Shown here: positions 3,196-30,894 of the stretch, in pieces
Layout: the number at the start of each line of letters is the position of its first letter
Numbering within the stretch: position 1 is the first letter of the stretch
Assembly (NCBI GenBank): GCA_009919275.1
Contig: RGCG01000009.1
Coordinates: 1 to 45,890 of the forward strand
Reading direction: 5' to 3'
DNA from: Actinomycetota bacterium
Lineage (GTDB): Bacteria; Actinomycetota; Acidimicrobiia; Acidimicrobiales; Ilumatobacteraceae
DNA: 45,890 bases
Notes under the pieces: model-generated
The model's database searches: none
Seen by the model: the letters and a program-made list of their open reading frames with translations, nothing else
Told to the model about the DNA's origin: nothing
Program-made: the position numbers and the translations under genes

Positions 3196-4253
3196 TCGTC
3201 GTGGCGTCCGAAGCGCACGGGGGTGATGGTTTGCCCGGCGGCCAATTGGCCACACGCCGCATCGATATCGGTGCCGCGGTTGCGGCGGACGGTGGCGTTC
3301 ACGCCGAAGCCCACCAGGATGTCGGCGAACTCGCGAACGCGTTGCGGTGATGACCCGCGGGTTGGCCAGCCAGGGGTGGGGTTGAGGGGAATCAAGTTCA
3401 CGTGCGCGCTCGGTCGCAGGCGTTTGCACAATCGCGCCAGTTCGTTTGCGTCTCGTTGGGTGTCGTTGACGCGGTCGATGAGTGCCCACTCAAAACTGAC
3501 GCGACGGCGCCGTTCCGTCAGGTAGTCGTTGCAGGCGGCGACGAGTTCGTCGATCGGGTAGCGCTTGTTGATGGGAACAAGTTCGTTGCGAAGTTCGTCG
3601 CGCGCGGCGTGTAGCGACACCGCGAGGTTCACGGGAAGGGGCCATGCGGCGAGTTGTTTGATGCCGGGGATGATGCCAACCGTGCTGATCGTGAGGTGGC
3701 GCGCCGAGATGCCGATGTCGTCGTGGATGCGTTCGACGGCGGCGCGGGTGGCGGCCTCGTTGGCAAGGGGCTCACCCATTCCCATGAAGACGATGTTCGA
3801 CACGCGACGATCCATGCCCTGCGCGCGCCGAGCAGCCTTCACGACCTGTTCGACAATCTCGCCGGCGGTGAGGTGACGGTTGAACCCGGCCTGTCCGGTG
3901 GCGCAGAAACCGCAGGCCATCGCACAACCAGCCTGCGTGCTCACGCACACCGTGGCGCGGTCGGGATACAACATGAGAACGGTTTCGATCGGGTGCTCAC
4001 CGTCGCGCAGGTGCCAGAGGAATTTCACGGTGTCGCCGGTTGTGTCGGTGCTCTCGGTCTTCCAGATGAGCGACTCGGGAAGTGCGCTCGTCAATTCATC
4101 GCGCAAGGTCGCAGGAAGGCTGGTGATGTCGGCCGGTTGGCGGAACTGTTGGTACAGCGCTTCCCACACCTGTTTCACGCGGTAGGCGGGTTGGTTGGGC
4201 ATCGCCGCAGCGATGTCGTCGCGCGATGCGTCGTAGAGACCCGTGGTTGCCAT
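3192..4253 (-). CDS. rlmN: 23S rRNA/tRNA (adenine-C2)-methyltransferase RlmN
   Basis: A 353-residue radical-SAM enzyme that methylates C2 of A2503 in 23S rRNA (and A37 of some tRNAs). The radical-SAM cluster motif C110-x3-C114-x2-C117 lies in CAMACGFCATGQ. The C-terminal methyl-carrying cysteine is in DAACGQL (about C334). The GEPLAN-like segment (MGMGEPLAN) and the N-terminal accessory domain (PAYRVKQVWEALY) are present. Length matches the family. ATG 4253 lies 4 nt after the mshD stop, so it is probably translated from the mshD transcript. Confidence 0.95.
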   Translation of the reverse strand: MATTGLYDASRDDIAAAMPNQPAYRVKQVWEALYQQFRQPADITSLPATLRDELTSALPESLIWKTESTDTTGDTVKFLWHLRDGEHPIETVLMLYPDRATVCVSTQAGCAMACGFCATGQAGFNRHLTAGEIVEQVVKAARRAQGMDRRVSNIVFMGMGEPLANEAATRAAVERIHDDIGISARHLTISTVGIIPGIKQLAAWPLPVNLAVSLHAARDELRNELVPINKRYPIDELVAACNDYLTERRRRVSFEWALIDRVNDTQRDANELARLCKRLRPSAHVNLIPLNPTPGWPTRGSSPQRVREFADILVGFGVNATVRRNRGTDIDAACGQLAAGQTITPVRFGRHDD

Positions 4254-4257
4254 GGGG

Positions 4258-5166
4258 TCAGTGAATGTCGCCCACGAACGCGCGCTCGCGGTGGGCGGGA
4301 ATGAAGCCGAGCTTGCGGTACATGTTGACCGCCGCATCGTTGCGCGTGTCGACGTAGAGCATGCCCGTTGTGGCACCGTTCGCGGCCAACCAATTGAGAC
4401 CCGAGATGGTGAGCTTCGAACCCATGCCTTTGCCGGCAAAGTCGGGATCGGCGGCGATGACGTAAATCTCGCCGACGGCGTCGGGGTGCATCTTCGTCCA
4501 ACAAAAGCCCGCGATGCGGCCATCGGATTCGGCTATACGGAAGCCATCGGGGTTGAACCACGATTCGCGCGTGCGTGCCGTGAGGGTGTCGATGTCCCAG
4601 TCGCCCTGCTCGGCGTGCTGGGCGAAGGCCCGGTTGTTGACGTCGAGCCATGCAGCCGCATCGCGTTCGAAGTTGAAACCGCGGGTGAAGCCGGCTTCCG
4701 CGCGCGAGGCCAGCTCGGGCTCGAGGGGGAGCGGTCGGCGCATTTGATACAGCTCGCGACCCGGGTGCAGGCCGATCTTTTCGGCGAGTTCGAAGTAGAT
4801 GGAGGAGGGTTCGAACACCCACCAGTGAACGTGTCCGCCACCCTCGGTGCGCACGACGTCGAGCGCGGCGTCGAGCATGGCCGGCCCGATGGCAGCCATG
4901 TCGTAGCGGTGGTGCGGGTGCACCACCAGGTCGACACCCCAACTGTCGTTTCCGCGCGACACCTGCGCATACGCAACGGGGTGGTCGTGGTCGTCTTCCC
5001 AGCCGATGATGGCGGCAAAACCCCGTCGACCCCCTTGGCGAAGGTCGAGCCAAAGATGGTCGGACAGTGCGCGCTGTCCGTCGGCGCGTTCGGCCGCCTC
5101 GAGCAGGCCGTTCACCACTTCGAAACCCCGTGCGTCGATGTTCCGGCGGATCTCGAGGCGCAGCAC
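4258..5166 (-). CDS. mshD: Mycothiol synthase (acetyl-CoA:Cys-GlcN-Ins acetyltransferase)
   Basis: A 302-residue protein with two GNAT domains that performs the last step of mycothiol synthesis. The C-terminal domain has the acetyl-CoA loop FAGKGMGSKL and a closing segment YVDTRNDAAVNMYRKLGF. GFCWTKMHP and GEIYVIAADP are typical of MshD. It marks the organism as a mycothiol-making actinobacterium. GTG 5166 is preferred because TACCCT (5178-5173) ends exactly 6 nt upstream and the predicted length fits known MshD (about 300). An in-frame ATG at 5217 would add 17 residues and overlap the nth start. rlmN follows after 4 nt. Confidence 0.9.
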   Translation of the reverse strand: MLRLEIRRNIDARGFEVVNGLLEAAERADGQRALSDHLWLDLRQGGRRGFAAIIGWEDDHDHPVAYAQVSRGNDSWGVDLVVHPHHRYDMAAIGPAMLDAALDVVRTEGGGHVHWWVFEPSSIYFELAEKIGLHPGRELYQMRRPLPLEPELASRAEAGFTRGFNFERDAAAWLDVNNRAFAQHAEQGDWDIDTLTARTRESWFNPDGFRIAESDGRIAGFCWTKMHPDAVGEIYVIAADPDFAGKGMGSKLTISGLNWLAANGATTGMLYVDTRNDAAVNMYRKLGFIPAHRERAFVGDIH

Positions 5167-24082: not shown

Positions 24083-24088
24083 AGGTTA
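24083..24088 (-). promoter_or_regulatory. -10 box TAACCT, leaderless promoter of the acyl-CoA synthetase
   Basis: Minus strand TAACCT (24088-24083) ends 7 nt before GTG 24075 and overlaps the last codons of the upstream DUF2231 gene. Confidence 0.45.
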
Positions 24089-24619
24089 GTCGTCGCCTCC
24101 GTCGCGCTCGCCGCCCTCGGTCTTCGCGCTCGTACCGCTCCAAACAGACTTTGCGCCCGTGTGTCCGGCGTCGTAGACGAACTTCGTCGCAACGGCTCCA
24201 GTCGCGACCGTGGTGCCCAGCAAGAGGACGGGTACCCAACGGGGGAGCTTTGACTCTCCGTTCCGACGCCGACGCCAAATCTCCTCCGCGGCGGTACCGA
24301 CGGCGATGATGCCGAATGCCACGGCAGGTGCCTGCGCCGCGTCACCCTTTTCGGTGTGGTCGCGGAGCAATTGTTTTTCGGCCGGAGTGTCGGAGGGTGA
24401 CCTGACCGCCGACTCGAGACTCTCACCTGCACCGGCTGCAAGTAGGACGCCGATTCCGCCAACCGCGGCCGCGCACGCCGCCACGACAAGCATCGGTTTG
24501 CGGATTCTTGGCCAGATGGCCGCAATTGCGAGAATCAGGCCGAGCGGCACGAGGACCACTGGGATGTGAACGAGAAGCGGATGCGCGGGCACTCCGCCGA
24601 TGGTGTCAAGTGCGTACAT
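24086..24619 (-). CDS. DUF2231 family membrane protein
   Basis: A 177-residue membrane protein with four hydrophobic segments (about 13-35, 42-65, 92-112, 125-145), opening with the DUF2231-type GGVPAHPLLVHIPVVLVPLG. A charged Glu/Arg/Asp tail follows. DUF2231 members often sit beside haem or redox membrane proteins; no reaction is known. It starts at ATG 24619, overlapping the 3' end of the ferric-reductase-like gene by 14 nt, as last gene of the ApbE operon. Confidence 0.8.
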   Translation of the reverse strand: MYALDTIGGVPAHPLLVHIPVVLVPLGLILAIAAIWPRIRKPMLVVAACAAAVGGIGVLLAAGAGESLESAVRSPSDTPAEKQLLRDHTEKGDAAQAPAVAFGIIAVGTAAEEIWRRRRNGESKLPRWVPVLLLGTTVATGAVATKFVYDAGHTGAKSVWSGTSAKTEGGERDGGDD

Positions 24620-25229
24620 GGATGTTTCTTTTCCCTTCCGACGCCGCGGACGGCGTCGACGATTCGAACTTGTTTGCTCCACTCAACGGAGCACGTGACG
24701 TGGGCGTACGAATTGTGAGGAGCCGAGCGGCGCCAAAGGCAGACGCGAGGGCAATTACTGCAATGGTGAGCGCGCCGTACCAGCGCGATGACGCATCGGT
24801 CCCGGCTGCGATTGCATGCCACGTCACCGTGACGAAAGCGAGATAACTCAGTAAGTGGATTGTTCGCCACGCCCGCTTCGGAAGGCGCTTGATCATCCAC
24901 GACGTCAATTGCACTGCGCTCAGCATCCAGAATGAAACAACACCCAGGGCAACCGAGCTGGGCTCCCAATGCGACGCAAAGGGAACGAGCAGGTGCGAGG
25001 CGGTGAAGTGTGTGTAGTTGTCACCGACCAGTGCGAGCATGTGGAGGGCTGTCGATGCCAAGAGCAGCGAGCCCAGCCAGCGATGGAGGTCGAGGAGCCA
25101 CGCCGGCCTGTCCCATCCCCGGAAGAGGCGTGTCGCAAGGAGGATTCCCCACACGCACGTGGCGAGTACGAGGACCCAGGCAACGGTGCCCGAGGCGCGT
25201 GAGACGTACCACCAGAAGTGACTGCTCAT
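24606..25229 (-). CDS. Ferric-reductase-like transmembrane (bis-haem b) protein
   Basis: A 207-residue protein with about six membrane spans. Two histidine pairs sit in hydrophobic helices: HRWLGSLLLASTALH (H-x13-H) and HLLSYLAFVTVTWH (H-x12-H), as expected for two transmembrane b haems in the ferric reductase/MsrQ-like fold. It carries no FAD/NADPH domain, so electrons must come from a partner. The start overlaps the apbE stop by 4 nt (ATGA). With ApbE it suggests transmembrane electron transfer to an extracytoplasmic flavin. Confidence 0.83.
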   Translation of the reverse strand: MSSHFWWYVSRASGTVAWVLVLATCVWGILLATRLFRGWDRPAWLLDLHRWLGSLLLASTALHMLALVGDNYTHFTASHLLVPFASHWEPSSVALGVVSFWMLSAVQLTSWMIKRLPKRAWRTIHLLSYLAFVTVTWHAIAAGTDASSRWYGALTIAVIALASAFGAARLLTIRTPTSRAPLSGANKFESSTPSAASEGKRNIHVRT

Positions 25230-26191
25230 CGGGCGAATTCCTTGAATGATGTAGTGGAAACGACACGGCCATCGCTGCGCTCGAAGCGACCAGCGAGACC
25301 GCGCGATTCAAGGATGAGACCTGCGGTGTCGGCGCCGGCCACGATGGTCGCCGTCGCGAACACCTCGGCCCATGCGGCGGTCGACGCGATGACACTCGCC
25401 ATACGAAGGGCGTCGCGTGTCGATTCGTCGATGGGTGAACCGGTTGCTGGGTCGATGATGTGGTGTCCGTTGTGCCAGCGCTTTGCGAATGTCGACGACG
25501 TGGCGATCGCCCCCGATCGGAGCACTACCGTCGTGCCGCCGATTGCAGGGTGAGAGATGGCCTCGATGTCGATGGCCCACCCGTCTCTGTCGGGGCTTTC
25601 TCCCGCACACCTGACGTCTCCTCCGATGCTGACCAAGGCGCCGCGTGCACCATTGAGCACCAGTCGCTCGGCAACGATGTCGGCGGCGAGACCCTTGCCG
25701 AGACCGCCCGGGTCGAGAGTTGCGCCGTCGAGCAGTCGGCACCACGTGGCGCCGTCGACGGTCTCGAGTAGCACGCTGCGCTGCGACGGATTGCGGTGAG
25801 CCGCCGGTGCACTGCAGCTTGGTAGGCCGTCGCCCGCGAGCGACAGGGAGTATCCGGCGCTGAGCAGCGCCGGAAGGATGAACGGATTGAAGAGACCATC
25901 GGTGGCCTGGTACGCAGCGAGCAAGTACCGAATCAAGACTTCGGTGTCGGGGGAGATCTGGATGGCACGACCGCGCGCTGAATTCAGCCGCGCAATGTCG
26001 GAGGTCACCATGAACCGACTCCACGCCGCCTCGAGCGCACGGGTCCAGTCGCGTCCGTGCTCGACGAGCAACTTGGCCCGGTCGGCATCGGTCGCATGGA
26101 CAACGATGTGTGCCGTATTTCCCATCGCGGGAAACTGGGCTTCCCCGACGAATCCGCCGTGGTCAACGCATGCGCCGTCAGTGCGACCCAC
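25226..26191 (-). CDS. apbE: FAD:protein FMN transferase (ApbE family)
   Basis: A 321-residue ApbE-type flavin transferase that links FMN covalently to Thr/Ser of extracytoplasmic proteins. Recognised segments are FPAMGNTAHIVV, LDPGGLGKGLAADI, LVSIGGDVRCAG, ATSSTFAKRWHNGHHIIDP and the metal-binding end WAEVFATATIVAG. No clear lipobox or signal peptide is seen. GTG 26191 with AGAGGA 7 nt upstream is preferred; it overlaps the preceding gene by 14 nt. A start at ATG 26263 is possible. No standard FMN-binding-domain substrate is nearby, so the target is open. Confidence 0.86.
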   Translation of the reverse strand: MGRTDGACVDHGGFVGEAQFPAMGNTAHIVVHATDADRAKLLVEHGRDWTRALEAAWSRFMVTSDIARLNSARGRAIQISPDTEVLIRYLLAAYQATDGLFNPFILPALLSAGYSLSLAGDGLPSCSAPAAHRNPSQRSVLLETVDGATWCRLLDGATLDPGGLGKGLAADIVAERLVLNGARGALVSIGGDVRCAGESPDRDGWAIDIEAISHPAIGGTTVVLRSGAIATSSTFAKRWHNGHHIIDPATGSPIDESTRDALRMASVIASTAAWAEVFATATIVAGADTAGLILESRGLAGRFERSDGRVVSTTSFKEFAR

Positions 26192-26591
26192 CGCTCGATC
26201 CTCTGCTCGGCGCGGATGGAAGTGTGAATTGAACAGGCGGCTCGGCCGGCGCGATGGCTGCAACCGTGCTCATCGGTGTCGTCACTGATGGTGCGACGCG
26301 GATTGCCGGTTGGGCCGTTGTCGGTGCGGAGTTCGAGGGAAATGTGGCTGGGGTGCCGGTGGGGCGCGTGACGGTGCCGAGTGGTCCGAGACCCGAGGGC
26401 CCGCTCGCCTGACCGGGCAACTTCTGAGGCGTTGCGGAACTTTCGGATGCCTGCAATTTTTCCGCGCCGCCGAACGCGGCGGTCATGCCGAGAATGGCAG
26501 TCGCGGAGATTCCTGTGGAAAGAATGCGCGCCGAATGCGCGACGTGACGGGGGCGCTTGGTGGCGAATCTTGCGGTCTTATCAGTCGTCAT
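26178..26591 (-). CDS. Small membrane-anchored Thr/Pro/Ala-rich protein, unknown
   Basis: A 137-residue protein, not recognised. A basic N-terminus (KTARFATKRPRH) precedes one hydrophobic stretch (ILSTGISATAILGMTAAFGG, about 23-42), so it is a signal anchor or signal peptide. The rest is low-complexity Pro/Thr/Ser/Ala, ending SRGSSGGSH. ATG 26591 follows GAAAGAGA and overlaps the stop of the upstream gene by 11 nt. Position between an exported acidic protein and ApbE suggests an extracytoplasmic linker or electron-transfer accessory; no flavinylation motif is evident. Confidence 0.6.
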   Translation of the reverse strand: MTTDKTARFATKRPRHVAHSARILSTGISATAILGMTAAFGGAEKLQASESSATPQKLPGQASGPSGLGPLGTVTRPTGTPATFPSNSAPTTAQPAIRVAPSVTTPMSTVAAIAPAEPPVQFTLPSAPSRGSSGGSH

Positions 26592-27300
26592 CGTCGTGGT
26601 CTCTTTCGTGATTCTCGCGCTCGTGGTGCCCGGGACCATCGCCGTCGTCGTCATCGTCATCGTCATCGTCATCTTCGCGGCGTGATCGTGGCGGATTGAC
26701 GTGACCACTCGACGGTGTGCTGACCGCGGCCATGATTTGACCATTGACAAGCCGCGCCGAGAATTCGACCGCGCTTGACGGAGAAGCGAGAGTGATGCGA
26801 ATCTCGCCGTCAATGTTCGTGCGGTGGTCCGTCGCTTGGTAGGTGGAGTCGGGTGCGATAGCAACGTCTTTCACGATCAAAAGTCCGTCGACGACCTTCA
26901 GGGTGACCGTGGCGATATCGGCGATCTTGAATTGCTTCTCGACGAGGCGGGACGGTGCGTCCGGAGCATCGGTCGACAGCGGTTCGGTCGGTGTGGTGTA
27001 CGAGCCCTCGGCTTCAGATTCAACGATGTCCACGAGGGGACTACCCAGCGGTGTCTCGGGCGAACCGTTGATTGCATCGGCTAGGCCCTCGGCGGAGAAT
27101 TCAGTGACGGAGCCGGAGGTAGCCCCGTCACCCAGCGACGTGACTCCGCTTTGCGTCCTGATACCGACCACCGTGGCGGAGGCGGGGGAGCCTTTTGTCG
27201 ACGACTCGGTATCGAGGATCGAAGAGTTCAGGGCAAGCGCTGCACCACCGGTGGCGAGCACGCCTACAAGCGAGAGGAAAGTGGCGAGACCTGGTTTCAC
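26581..27300 (-). CDS. Exported protein with Asp10 tract and His/Asp-rich tail
   Basis: A 239-residue protein with a signal peptide (LATFLSLVGVLATGGAALAL). A Ser/Thr/Glu-rich middle leads into a beta-rich domain (about 125-210: TVTLKVVDGLLIVKDVAIAP, GEIRITLASPSSAVEFSARL). The C-terminus has ten consecutive Asp residues, then GHHERENHERDHDDDD, a likely metal- or calcium-binding tail. The Asp tract is encoded partly by a GATGAC hexamer repeat. GTG 27300 has TACCGT 7 nt upstream. It heads the ApbE/ferric-reductase-like operon, divergent from a two-component pair, so it may be the sensed or electron-accepting surface component. Function unknown. Confidence 0.68.
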   Translation of the reverse strand: MKPGLATFLSLVGVLATGGAALALNSSILDTESSTKGSPASATVVGIRTQSGVTSLGDGATSGSVTEFSAEGLADAINGSPETPLGSPLVDIVESEAEGSYTTPTEPLSTDAPDAPSRLVEKQFKIADIATVTLKVVDGLLIVKDVAIAPDSTYQATDHRTNIDGEIRITLASPSSAVEFSARLVNGQIMAAVSTPSSGHVNPPRSRREDDDDDDDDDDGDGPGHHERENHERDHDDDD

Positions 27301-27348: not shown

Positions 27349-27411
27349 AAAGAAACATCCAAGATTCTCGAAGCCGCGCAGATGAGCCGTGCGTCGGCGA
27401 CAATGGACTCC

Positions 27412-28080
27412 GTGAAGGTTCTTCTCGTCGAAGACGATCCCTCAATTGCGGCGGTGGTGCGGCGTGGTCTCGGAGACGCGGGCTTCGAGGTGCTGCATGT
27501 CGAAACGGGCGCTGCGGCACTCGCGGCTGATGGCTACGACTTCGTGTTGCTCGACCTCGGCCTCCCCGATACCGACGGATTCGACGTGTGCCGAGAAATC
27601 CGAACGAAGAGCCACGTCCCCGTCATCATTGTCACGGCCCGCGGCGATGAGCTCGACAGGGTCGTCGGCCTTGAACTCGGTGCGGATGACTATGTCGTGA
27701 AGCCGTTCGGTATGCGCGAACTCGTTGCGCGCATTCGCGCTGTGCTGCGCCGGGGTGGGGGTCAAGACGGTGTGCAGCCGTCCGGCGACATCGCTGTCGG
27801 AACGCTGCTGGTCAATGAGAAGACGCGTGAAGTGACCCTTGACGGACAGGTGATGTCGTTGACACCGAAAGAGTTCGACTTGCTCGCGTACCTCGCCACC
27901 GAACCCGAGGTGGTGCACCGCCGACACGACATTCTCGAACGCGTCTGGGACACCGAGTGGTACGGTCCGACGAAAACTCTCGACGCTCACGTTGCCGCGT
28001 TGCGCAAGAAGCTCGGAAACCAAGACTGGATCGAGGCGGTCAGGGGGGTCGGCTTCCGCTTGAGGGTCCCCCGAACGTGA
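27412..28080 (+). CDS. OmpR/PhoB-type response regulator
   Basis: A 222-residue two-component regulator. The receiver domain has the acidic pocket EDD, phospho-acceptor D48 in VLLDLGLPD, Thr in IIVTARG and Lys in YVVKPFG. The C-terminal winged helix (SLTPKEFDLLAYL, AVRGVGFRLR) is PhoB-like. GTG 27412 fits the usual M-K-V-L-L-V-E-D start; in-frame ATGs at 27382 and 27403 are alternatives. It overlaps the kinase by GTGA. The likely target is the divergent ApbE operon 111 bp away, by position. Confidence 0.9.
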   Translation: MKVLLVEDDPSIAAVVRRGLGDAGFEVLHVETGAAALAADGYDFVLLDLGLPDTDGFDVCREIRTKSHVPVIIVTARGDELDRVVGLELGADDYVVKPFGMRELVARIRAVLRRGGGQDGVQPSGDIAVGTLLVNEKTREVTLDGQVMSLTPKEFDLLAYLATEPEVVHRRHDILERVWDTEWYGPTKTLDAHVAALRKKLGNQDWIEAVRGVGFRLRVPRT

Positions 28081-29510
28081 GGCGACGATTGATCCTCGCC
28101 GTCGTCGGGTTGGTGGCACTCATCCTCGTTGTTCATGACGTGCCGCTGCGCACTCACCTTCGTCGTGTCGAACGTGATCGGGTCATCACGGCTCTTGAGC
28201 GCGATGCCTCCACTCTCGCGGCCAAGGCACAGCAATTGCTTGCGCAGTCCAATCCTGCCTCTGCTACGACAGTCTCGGGAGTCACGCTCGCGGCGTTGGT
28301 CGAGGATTACAACGCAACGTCAGAAGCCCTCGTTGTGATCGTCGATCGTGACGGCGGGGCGCAGGCCGCAACCGACCCGACTGTGGCACAAGATCAGTCG
28401 TATCTCAATCGGCCGGAAATCGCTTCGGCGTTGCTCGGAAACTCTGCGGTTGGCACGCGGCGTAGCGAGACACTCGGTGAGGATCTGGTGTACTCGGCTG
28501 TTCCCGTACTCACAACCGACAGCGTCATCGGTGCCGTTCGTCTGACATATCCTGAATCAGTCGTCAACGCTCGAGTTGCCGATCGCCTCCGCGGGTTGCT
28601 GATCCTCGCGTTGATCTCACTGTCCTTGGCTTTCTTGGCCGCGTTTCTGGTGGCGACCAGTGTCGTCAGACCATTGAGGCGCCTCCGCGCGCAAAGCGAC
28701 ACCATCGCCGCGGGTGATCTGTCGGCCCGCGCCACCGTTGAAGGTCCGATAGAGGTGAGGGAACTCGCGGCATCGTTCAACGACATGGCGACGCGAGTCG
28801 AACAAACGCTTGCTGAACAGCGACGCTTTGCCGGCGATGCGTCACATCAGTTGCGCACACCGCTCACGGCTTTGCGTCTGCGAGTCGAGCAGGCGTTGGC
28901 GACTGTTGCCGAGCACCCCAACCGGCCCGCCACGGAAGTCGCTGACGATCTCGAGGCGGCGGTCAACGAACTCGACCGACTCGCACGGCTGGTGGAGCAG
29001 TTGCTGGCGCTCGCTCGAACCGAAGCACCCGGCGCAACCGTGCGAGTTGATGTCGACGGGGTCATCGCGGCGCGTGTTGAAATGTGGCGGTCTCTCGCCG
29101 AGGAACGAGGACTTGAGATTGTCAATGAAGGAAGCGCCGAATGCATCGTCGACGCGATGCCGGGTGCGCTCGAACAGATCATCGACAATTACATCGACAA
29201 CGCCCTTGACTACGCGCCCGCAGGTACGGCGATCGTCATCAGCGTCTCGCGGACGTTATCCGAGGCGACGATCCGCGTGGGCGATCGTGGTCCGGGCATG
29301 TCGTCGGCTGCGCGAGAGCGTGCATTTGATCGGTTCTGGCGGGGGCCGGAGAGTCAGAACCGGCCCGGAGGCAGTGGGCTCGGGCTATCAATCGTGGCCC
29401 AACTCGCCGCGGCCTCGGGTGGGCGTGTCTCCCTGAGGGAAAACCCCGGAGGTGGACTTCTGGCCGCCGTGACGCTGCGTGTCGTCAGTCCCGACGGCAC
29501 TCCGCGATGA
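28077..29510 (+). CDS. Sensor histidine kinase
   Basis: A 477-residue membrane kinase: TM1 (LILAVVGLVALILVV, about 5-19), an extracytoplasmic sensor of about 150 residues, TM2 (about 180-200), HAMP (RPLRRLRAQSDTIAAGDLSA), the dimerisation box with phospho-His H257 (GDASHQLRTPL), N box (IIDNYIDNALDYAP) and G boxes (VGDRGPGMS, GGSGLGLSIV). It starts by GTGA overlap with the response regulator. Its last 26 nt overlap the 3' end of a convergent metallopeptidase gene. The signal is unknown; neighbours suggest a redox or envelope cue. Confidence 0.9.
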   Translation: MRRRLILAVVGLVALILVVHDVPLRTHLRRVERDRVITALERDASTLAAKAQQLLAQSNPASATTVSGVTLAALVEDYNATSEALVVIVDRDGGAQAATDPTVAQDQSYLNRPEIASALLGNSAVGTRRSETLGEDLVYSAVPVLTTDSVIGAVRLTYPESVVNARVADRLRGLLILALISLSLAFLAAFLVATSVVRPLRRLRAQSDTIAAGDLSARATVEGPIEVRELAASFNDMATRVEQTLAEQRRFAGDASHQLRTPLTALRLRVEQALATVAEHPNRPATEVADDLEAAVNELDRLARLVEQLLALARTEAPGATVRVDVDGVIAARVEMWRSLAEERGLEIVNEGSAECIVDAMPGALEQIIDNYIDNALDYAPAGTAIVISVSRTLSEATIRVGDRGPGMSSAARERAFDRFWRGPESQNRPGGSGLGLSIVAQLAAASGGRVSLRENPGGGLLAAVTLRVVSPDGTPR

Positions 29511-30894
29511 GTTCGTTGTAGCGGTCGATCGCCCGCTCGTCGGACTGCAGTTCGTCGATCGTGAACTCGGTGTAGATCCCCGTGGCGACGCACTCGGCGT
29601 CGGAATCGGGTTCGGAACGCCAGATGTAGGAAATGTCCCCCGCGCGCCAGAACAGCTGTTGTGTGTCGCTTTCGCTCGGCAAATCGAGGTCTGCCTTTGG
29701 TCCCGGATCGCACGATTCGACACTGAAGTAGTGCTCGTGCGGGGTCACCTTGGCGTCGCGAAGACCGGGTGATTTGGCCCACTCACCGAACGCTTGCCGC
29801 AGTTCATCGGTTGTTTCGTCGTTCTCGCCGCGCACGTTCAGCACGGCGCAGAAGTCGTCGTCGCCCACCTCGAAGCCGGCATACGAGCCATTGCCCCAAA
29901 GGTCGCTCAGGCGCAGTGCCTCGGGCGCATCCCACGCGCGCACCATGAGAAAGAACAAGTCAAGCTGACTCAATTGACCAGACACTGCAAGTTCCGAGTT
30001 CTTCGGACCCTTCGGGATGTCAATCTCTTCGGGCTTGTCTCCCTCAAAGTACTTCGAGGGCAGGATCGTCTGTTCGAGCGACTTCGGCTGCTTCTTCATG
30101 AAGGCATCAAGCAGGGTTTGTTCCCCCTTGCGCTCGAGCGCTTCGACGAATGTCGGTCCGAAGACGTAGGGGGAGAATTGCTGGGCCGAGAGGATCTCGG
30201 GGACCTTGGCGATTGCGGCCGTGTCTTCGTCGTCACCCTGCGTCGCGTCGTCGTACTGCTCGCGTTCGGCATCGGAGAAGTTGTCGCTCACGTACATGTT
30301 CTCGATGGACAAAGCGTGTCCTTCGATGAGGGCCGTCAGTGCTTCGTCGTGGCCTGAATCGTGGGCGCGTTCCCGCATTCGGGCGAGGCCGAAACGCTGA
30401 TCCTGTAATGCGTGGGCGAGTTCGTGCACCACCGTTGCCCGCAGGGCCGGCGACAGTTCATTGCCCGTCACGTCGTCGGGGTTCATCCGGATCACCATCT
30501 CGCGGTCGGACGGCGAGTAGTACGCGAGGATGCCGCTCGCATTCAGTGTGTTCTGGTCCTTGAACAGATCGACGTCGCCACTGGCCAGTCCGAGAGAGCG
30601 CAGCAAACGACCGGTTGCGTCGTAGTAGTCGCGGTCATCGTCGGTGAGATCGTCTTCGTCATCGGTCACCAATTTCTCGAATTCTTTGTCGCCCAGGAAC
30701 CGCGTGCGCACCGGATGCTCGAAGTCGAAGTCGGCATGGCGCTCGACGTAGTCCGCAAGTTTTGCCACGCGCGGGTCCCACTCATCGGGCCAGTCGTACG
30801 CGAACGGTTGCCACGCTCCAAGTCCCCACGAGCCCGCCCCCAAGACGACGATGGCAAGCACCACTGCGACGACGCGTCGGACAACGGTGCTCAT
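29485..30894 (-). CDS. Membrane-anchored HExxH metallopeptidase-like protein
   Basis: A 469-residue protein with one N-terminal membrane anchor or signal (VVRRVVAVVLAIVVLGAGSWGLGAW) and a large outer domain. The zinc motif HELAHALQDQRFGL is followed about 35-40 residues later by a Glu-containing helix (EALTALIEGHALS), which suits a gluzincin-like third ligand. The family is seen in actinobacteria without known substrate. Paired Cys are few. The start overlaps the stop of the preceding gene by 4 nt (ATGA), so both are coupled. Confidence 0.75.
   Translation of the reverse strand: MSTVVRRVVAVVLAIVVLGAGSWGLGAWQPFAYDWPDEWDPRVAKLADYVERHADFDFEHPVRTRFLGDKEFEKLVTDDEDDLTDDDRDYYDATGRLLRSLGLASGDVDLFKDQNTLNASGILAYYSPSDREMVIRMNPDDVTGNELSPALRATVVHELAHALQDQRFGLARMRERAHDSGHDEALTALIEGHALSIENMYVSDNFSDAEREQYDDATQGDDEDTAAIAKVPEILSAQQFSPYVFGPTFVEALERKGEQTLLDAFMKKQPKSLEQTILPSKYFEGDKPEEIDIPKGPKNSELAVSGQLSQLDLFFLMVRAWDAPEALRLSDLWGNGSYAGFEVGDDDFCAVLNVRGENDETTDELRQAFGEWAKSPGLRDAKVTPHEHYFSVESCDPGPKADLDLPSESDTQQLFWRAGDISYIWRSEPDSDAECVATGIYTEFTIDELQSDERAIDRYNELIAECRRD

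Follow-up and report, generated by a model that had tools for sequence, protein, structure and literature searches.

The 45,890-nucleotide stretch of Actinomycetota DNA analysed here (Ilumatobacteraceae; assembly GCA_009919275.1, contig RGCG01000009.1, positions 1 to 45,890; hereafter the window) carries an operon of five genes that combines ApbE, an FAD (flavin adenine dinucleotide):protein FMN (flavin mononucleotide) transferase, with a predicted bis-haem membrane cytochrome and two small proteins, one of which, MID, is considered here as a candidate ApbE substrate. The source genome comprises 2.18 Mb in 237 contigs and is 87.6% complete. The locus is composed of the following features:

26581..27300, minus strand: SRP, an exported protein of 239 residues with a GTG start, consisting of a conserved N-terminal helix, a variable linker, a small beta domain (residues 118-196) and an acidic/His tail ending in DDDD
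27109..27132, minus strand: GDGATSGS segment of SRP, residues 57-64 by count
26178..26591, minus strand: MID, 137 residues, ATG start, consisting of a basic N-tail, one membrane helix, a P/A/T-rich linker and the C-terminal residues SSGGSH
26184..26195, minus strand: SGGS codons of MID, the proposed flavin acceptor, in which the last Ser would be flavinylated
25226..26191, minus strand: ApbE of type B, 321 residues, GTG start, PF02424, no evident signal peptide
24606..25229, minus strand: FRE, 207 residues, putative bis-haem MsrQ-like membrane cytochrome without NAD/FAD domain, PF01794
24086..24619, minus strand: accessory DUF2231 membrane protein, 177 residues, PF09990
27343..27363, minus strand: direct repeat upstream of SRP, predicted as a probable response-regulator site
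27382..28080, plus strand: divergent OmpR-type response regulator (Response_reg and Trans_reg_C)
27957..29510, plus strand: divergent histidine kinase (HAMP, HisKA, HATPase_c)

An initial annotation of this DNA had described a five-gene operon in which every junction overlaps. The open reading frames and overlaps were re-derived at the same place: all five genes lie on the minus strand, and the junctions SRP/MID/ApbE/FRE/DUF2231 overlap by 11, 14, 4 and 14 nt. The identities proposed for ApbE, the ferric-reductase-like protein and DUF2231 were likewise borne out by Pfam matches with E-values of 1.9e-41, 7.8e-9 and 4.4e-9, respectively; the PF02424 match of ApbE (residues 23-297) scored 142.8 bits against a curated cut-off of 25.6, and the PF01794 match of FRE scored 36.1 bits against a cut-off of 28. 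In agreement with the earlier statement that neither small protein contains a normal FMN-binding domain, SRP and MID of the window matched no Pfam family at E up to 1, FMN_bind (PF04205) included. Eight other MIDs matched no Pfam family at E up to 0.1, and among the NCBIfam matches listed nothing exceeded the cut-offs, also not for SRP.

To describe the conservation of the module, homologues were collected at several levels. Homologues of SRP occurred in 43 and those of FRE in 84 of 200 genomes of the family. The first 40 stretches were picked around SRP or FRE matches, and the gene order kinase/regulator (divergent), SRP, MID, ApbE, FRE was near-constant in these as far as contig ends permitted. 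One scan of the named collection with the FRE alignment yielded 78 loci, in which profiles detected ApbE in 74, MID in 55, SRP in 53, the response regulator and the kinase in 44 each and DUF2231 in nine, counts that are lowered by contig ends and weak profiles. From these counts DUF2231 is classed as accessory and SRP as not universal. FMN_bind, searched for with a single-sequence query, gave no match in the 78 named loci, and no other conserved candidate substrate gene was seen in the loci examined. The operon arrangement is beyond chance: the same order occurs in dozens of other genomes, and the module is present in several classes of Actinomycetota. Desertimonas flava, a cultured relative, also has it (L180).

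The relatives of MID occupy the same position in most loci and are built alike, with a basic N-tail, a conserved helix and a linker of low complexity. Their ends include SSGGS, TSGSN, SSGSK, SNGSR, SHAS and TKAS. The pattern [ST]-x-[GAP]-S within the last eight residues, which was fixed on the 78 named loci, ends MID in 64 of the 65 assessable named loci, compared to 81 of 4807 same-protein linker segments; the sole exception, L202, has T-K-C-S further in. Subsequently, one automatic rule was applied to four sets, with counts given as unique C-termini. The motif was present in 53 of 58 unique tails of the family set (59 assessable, from 66 loci with type-B ApbE among 80), in 62 of 63 of the named set (64 assessable, 73 type-B loci of 78), in 26 of 30 of the class set (30 assessable, 35 type-B loci of 40) and in 13 of 16 from other actinobacterial classes (16 assessable, 18 type-B loci of 20). 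The family, named and class sets share some genomes and are not mutually independent; the last, phylum-level set was fetched after the motif had been fixed. With shuffled tails the mean count lay between 1.9 and 3.6 and the maximum between 6 and 10, depending on the set (phylum set: mean 1.9, maximum 6).

Pooling of the four sets resulted in 126 unique C-termini, and in 120 of these [ST]xxS occurred no more than five residues from the end. In 115 of those tails the residue preceding the Ser was Gly (84), Ala (16) or Pro (15), and the MID of L326 ends in SSGAS, which holds a canonical SGAS acceptor. With respect to topology, 105 of the 126 proteins displayed a helix with the more positive side N-terminal, 17 a helix without this charge distribution and four no helix by the rule applied. 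In eight inspected loci ApbE was not beside FRE or not found; the tail protein abuts FRE in seven of them, and all seven carry the motif. Several of the six tails lacking [ST]xxS have a Cys near the end (e.g., L136, L282, L114 and L134), and Cys residues occur around the small-Ser motif in tails of L134/L202, L136, L212, L213, L282 and L114, such as CKGSKC and CTTNASGKC. Such variants may perhaps form a disulphide-closed loop.

The ApbE of the module (type B) was compared with the shorter ApbE that goes with FMN_bind (type A). The genome of the window has three ApbE profile matches: one is the gene of the window, and the other two are portions of a shorter ApbE at C125. This shorter ApbE lies next to a ferric-reductase/NAD-type protein and to the only FMN_bind protein of the genome, which contains SGAT. 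FMN_bind with [ST]GA[ST] was likewise present in the eight fetched loci whose FRE genes are more distant (L125-L132), and ApbE lies within the stretch in seven of the eight. In a quick tree of 51 type-B and eight type-A ApbEs, the latter sampled from this family only, the two types were split by one branch with a support of 100. His244, T231 and S232 of ApbE are invariant in an 18-row alignment. Glu276 is present in all 17 type-B rows, and Asp occupies this position in the C125 protein and in the aligned solved ApbEs. Judged from its distance to the His of the solved sequence in the alignment, Glu276 would correspond to Asp285 of the conserved triad proposed for ApbE (Asp285, Ser241, His257; PMC12052999). 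A loose script count gave Glu in 175, Asp in five and an unresolved residue in 12 of 192 partly overlapping loci, for which the alignment is the firmer source.

Among 50 module-bearing genomes, which were chosen for the module, Pfam detected ApbE in all 50 and FMN_bind in 17. An ApbE match lies beside FMN_bind in 16 of these 17; in G008 a distance of about 239 kb separates the FMN_bind gene from a short ApbE of the same contig. In G093 and G422, an FMN_bind protein with SGAT beside a short ApbE was missed by the Pfam search. ApbE with no FMN_bind found occurred in 31 of the 50 genomes. The single-contig genomes G038, G201 and G545 each contain one ApbE and none of three other substrate families, FMN_bind, NqrB/RnfD and DUF2271, a search that did not extend to DUF3570, Flavodoxin_4 and FMN_red. 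PF03116 matched in four of 23 genomes tested, three of them over the cut-off, and none in G038, G201 or G545. Locus L355 (G201:C1:1003500-1009500) encodes, at 3598-4535 on the minus strand, a pair of small proteins that look exported and have acidic tails, one of them with the exact acceptor motif DGATGAS; beside them lie an ApbE of type B and a two-component system.

The initial annotation had pointed to SRP and its GDGATSGS segment as a possible flavin acceptor. The segment is indeed present at residues 57-64, however, it is not conserved: scored as D-x-x-[ST]-[GSAP]-[AG]-[ST], the pattern occurred in one of 27 aligned SRPs and in one of 33 family SRPs, window included, and in both cases this was the window protein itself. 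SRP was therefore rejected as flavin carrier. [ST]GA[ST] is found elsewhere in the linker of four of the 27 aligned SRPs. Invariant positions in the 27-row alignment are T7, G18, F180 and the C-terminal DD; the acidic tail noted earlier is a true feature of the protein, DD ending all 27 and DDD 24 of the 27 sequences. The domain at 118-196 was modelled confidently as seven strands (predicted local distance difference test, pLDDT, 92-97 over blocks 121-190), and Foldseek returned no PDB match for this fold at E <= 0.001. The best second-look match, 4k15 (lmo2686; Z 7.4, root-mean-square deviation (rmsd) 2.7 over 77 residues), was too weak to be used. In stretches of about 3 kb in L344, L349, L350, L351 and L352, SRP occurs with the kinase system and the operator box and without ApbE, MID and FRE. 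As these three genes are missing from the five stretches, SRP seems to have a role apart from flavinylation, and it probably represents a metal- or stress-related partner rather than a flavin carrier.

In FRE, H49, H63, H125 and H138 are invariant and form two pairs of conserved His. Mainly based on these residues and the Pfam match, FRE is predicted to be an MsrQ-like/Ferric_reduct cytochrome binding two haems. Its model is helical and had no Foldseek match at E <= 0.001; a second look listed bacterial NOX (Z 13.6, rmsd 3.5, 159 aligned residues), cytochrome b561 and STEAP, which is near the chance level for helical bundles. The haem-protein part of FRE also weakly matched the NCBIfam model of the magnetosome protein MamZ (24.1 bits, cut-off 650). 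Upstream of SRP, a conserved direct repeat TTGGA-N6-TTGGA was identified, which is probably the binding site of the response regulator. A degenerate form of the repeat gave 17 exact matches in 16 of 101 genomes and none for a reversed control; 16 of the 17 are located in the region separating the kinase system from SRP, and the genome of the window has one match. The idea that the two-component system controls a wide regulon was rejected, as the operator pattern occurred at one place outside the operon only. This lone operator-like match, L340 (G045:C3:88728), is located near transporter-like and TetR-like reading frames. The listed kinase reading frame of the window begins within the response-regulator gene, and its true start is probably later. 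The adjoining 469-residue protein (29485-30894, minus strand) has a weak SprT-like match of 18.1 bits, below the cut-off.

Taken together, we lean towards a reading in which MID is a minimal ApbE substrate that replaces the FMN_bind protein and provides a flavin tail serving FRE, flavinylation being predicted from sequence. The operon would encode an MsrQ-like, flavin-based electron export system with MID in the place of the FMN_bind subunit. MID would be anchored by its single helix and expose a P/A/T-rich, flexible arm that terminates in [ST]-x-[GA]-S, and the operon's ApbE may attach FMN to the last conserved Ser of this motif. Electrons could pass from quinol or a cytosolic donor to FRE, from the outer haem of FRE to the flavin of the MID tail, which would act as a swinging carrier, and from there to an acceptor outside; SRP would be the first gene under control of the adjacent two-component system. 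The idea of a new class of ApbE substrates without FMN_bind, as raised in the initial annotation, is retained and strengthened, but the substrate is likely to be the 137-residue and not the 239-residue protein. A more far-reaching version is held more tentatively, as a possibility a little short of probable: a domain-less flavoprotein of Actinomycetota, in which a membrane-anchored flexible arm bears FMN on a C-terminal Ser as the only conserved motif outside, [ST]-x-[GA]-S is accepted as target by a dedicated ApbE subfamily whose proposed triad has Glu for Asp, and the arm swings between the bis-haem cytochrome and external acceptors. Such an arm may be likened to the lipoyl arms that swing in dehydrogenase complexes. 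A terminal position of the acceptor has parallels: in FMN_red proteins the flavin is attached to an unstructured extension of the C-terminus (PMC11334425), and an artificial flavin tag performs best when placed at the end of a protein (PMC12052999). In the literature collection searched, no description of such a tail was found.

Several observations weigh against MID as an ApbE substrate. Compared to proven ApbE sites, the MID tail is of looser sequence and has no Asp; the Asp of the canonical seven-residue motif is, by eye, not conserved, most tails have no Gly at -2, and the exact [ST]GA[ST] occurs in one of the 126 pooled tails only, that of L326. The motif as written is missed by five of 58 family, four of 30 class and three of 16 phylum tails. 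The window MID itself, ending in SSGGSH, does not match the acceptor motif D-x-x-[ST]-G-A-[ST]. Published Gly-to-Ala and Ala-to-Val changes within the acceptor about halve flavinylation, the change of Asp to Ala has a minor effect, and Thr is preferred over Ser (PMC12052999). In addition, the N-terminus of ApbE, judged on the 25 residues before the domain and 15 inside, shows no hydrophobic stretch in 182 of 192 loci, yet the MID tail is predicted outside (105/126). However, the ApbE at C125 is also devoid of an evident signal peptide, and as the C125 pair presents the same conflict between a cytosolic-looking ApbE and an outside partner, this is not specific to a flavin-bearing MID. Moreover, the ApbE of G201 has two other exported proteins as neighbours, and one of these contains a canonical DGATGAS.

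Alternatively, the conserved tail may serve in docking to, or recognition by, FRE or ApbE while ApbE modifies another, unrecognised protein. This would account for the looseness of the tail compared to proven acceptor motifs and for the position of MID next to FRE even with ApbE elsewhere, and the DGATGAS protein adjoining ApbE in G201 would provide an example of another target. Against docking, the only invariant residue outside is a Ser following a small residue and with Ser/Thr at -3, as in ApbE acceptors, one tail reads exactly SGAS, and the loci revealed no other conserved candidate gene. We consider this explanation unlikely, but of all alternatives it has to be taken most seriously. That SRP is the substrate, through GDGATSGS or another site in the linker, appears very improbable. 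The segment exists, [ST]GA[ST] is present somewhere in the linker of four of 27 SRPs, and the G201 protein next to ApbE has DGATGAS. However, the GDGATSGS pattern is confined to one of the 27 SRPs, 25 of the 78 named loci have no SRP profile match (partly due to contig ends), and SRP accompanies the kinase system without ApbE in the five 3-kb loci.

A GAT segment that is not conserved, together with a standard FMN_bind partner encoded elsewhere, had been named as grounds for refutation, and taken literally both are observed for SRP. If the ApbE of the window served such an FMN_bind protein, the module would be an ordinary MsrQ-like system. Such a protein, with SGAT, does exist at C125. As its own ApbE adjoins it, however, it does not explain the ApbE of the window, and supply of FMN_bind in trans is further disfavoured by the 31 of 50 module genomes in which no FMN_bind was found; the single-contig genomes with ApbE suggest that FMN_bind can be absent genome-wide. 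This explanation is rated marginally below that of SRP as substrate. The least credible option is that the tail is a by-product at the DNA level, caused by ribosome-binding or start-codon constraints of the overlapping apbE. The apbE start of the window lies inside the SGGS codons, and among the 126 unique tails there are 78 in which MID overlaps with a candidate start of apbE. However, the terminal Ser uses all six codons and the Gly all four, a Shine-Dalgarno-like string is seen in no more than 11 of the 115 motifs, and of the MIDs without an overlapping ApbE start 41 of 45 retain the motif, compared to 71 of 78 with one; it is also retained where FRE follows MID instead. Both codon use and retention of the motif without overlap therefore argue against a ribosome-site or overlap artefact.

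If MID is flavinylated, the target code of ApbE would be widened to a new kind of target, a minimal flavin tag would exist in nature, and electrons would have a simpler route across the membrane. In the survey of Meheust et al. (2021; PMC8238504), 4% of flavinylation genomes (670) had ApbE but no known substrate, and the MID module provides a concrete candidate for such cases. The MsrQ-like flavinylation clusters of Actinobacteria described there likewise combine ApbE with a bis-haem MsrQ-like PF01794 protein and were proposed to function in electron export. However, these clusters typically contain an FMN_bind gene and often an NAD-binding domain, whereas the present operon has neither and possesses MID instead. 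The same survey removed genes without predicted signal peptide, which would exclude the ApbE of the module. The type-A locus at C125 resembles the module in the clustering of cytochrome, flavoprotein and ApbE, the latter without evident signal peptide, but differs from it by a canonical FMN_bind protein with SGAT and by a shorter ApbE across a fully supported branch. The substrates other than FMN_bind, namely DUF2271 and DUF3570 (PMC8238504) and Flavodoxin_4 and FMN_red (PMC11334425), were also found by gene context; as described in these studies, each is a folded domain, carries an [ST]GA[ST]-like motif and has been proven experimentally, whereas MID, a candidate predicted from sequence, has no recognised domain and a looser motif. 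The Flavin-tag, an artificial seven-residue ApbE tag (PMC12052999), reads D-x-x-[ST]-G-A-[ST], from which MID deviates in having no conserved Asp and usually no Gly; as a short acceptor peptide, however, it is the system of which the MID tail may resemble a natural equivalent.

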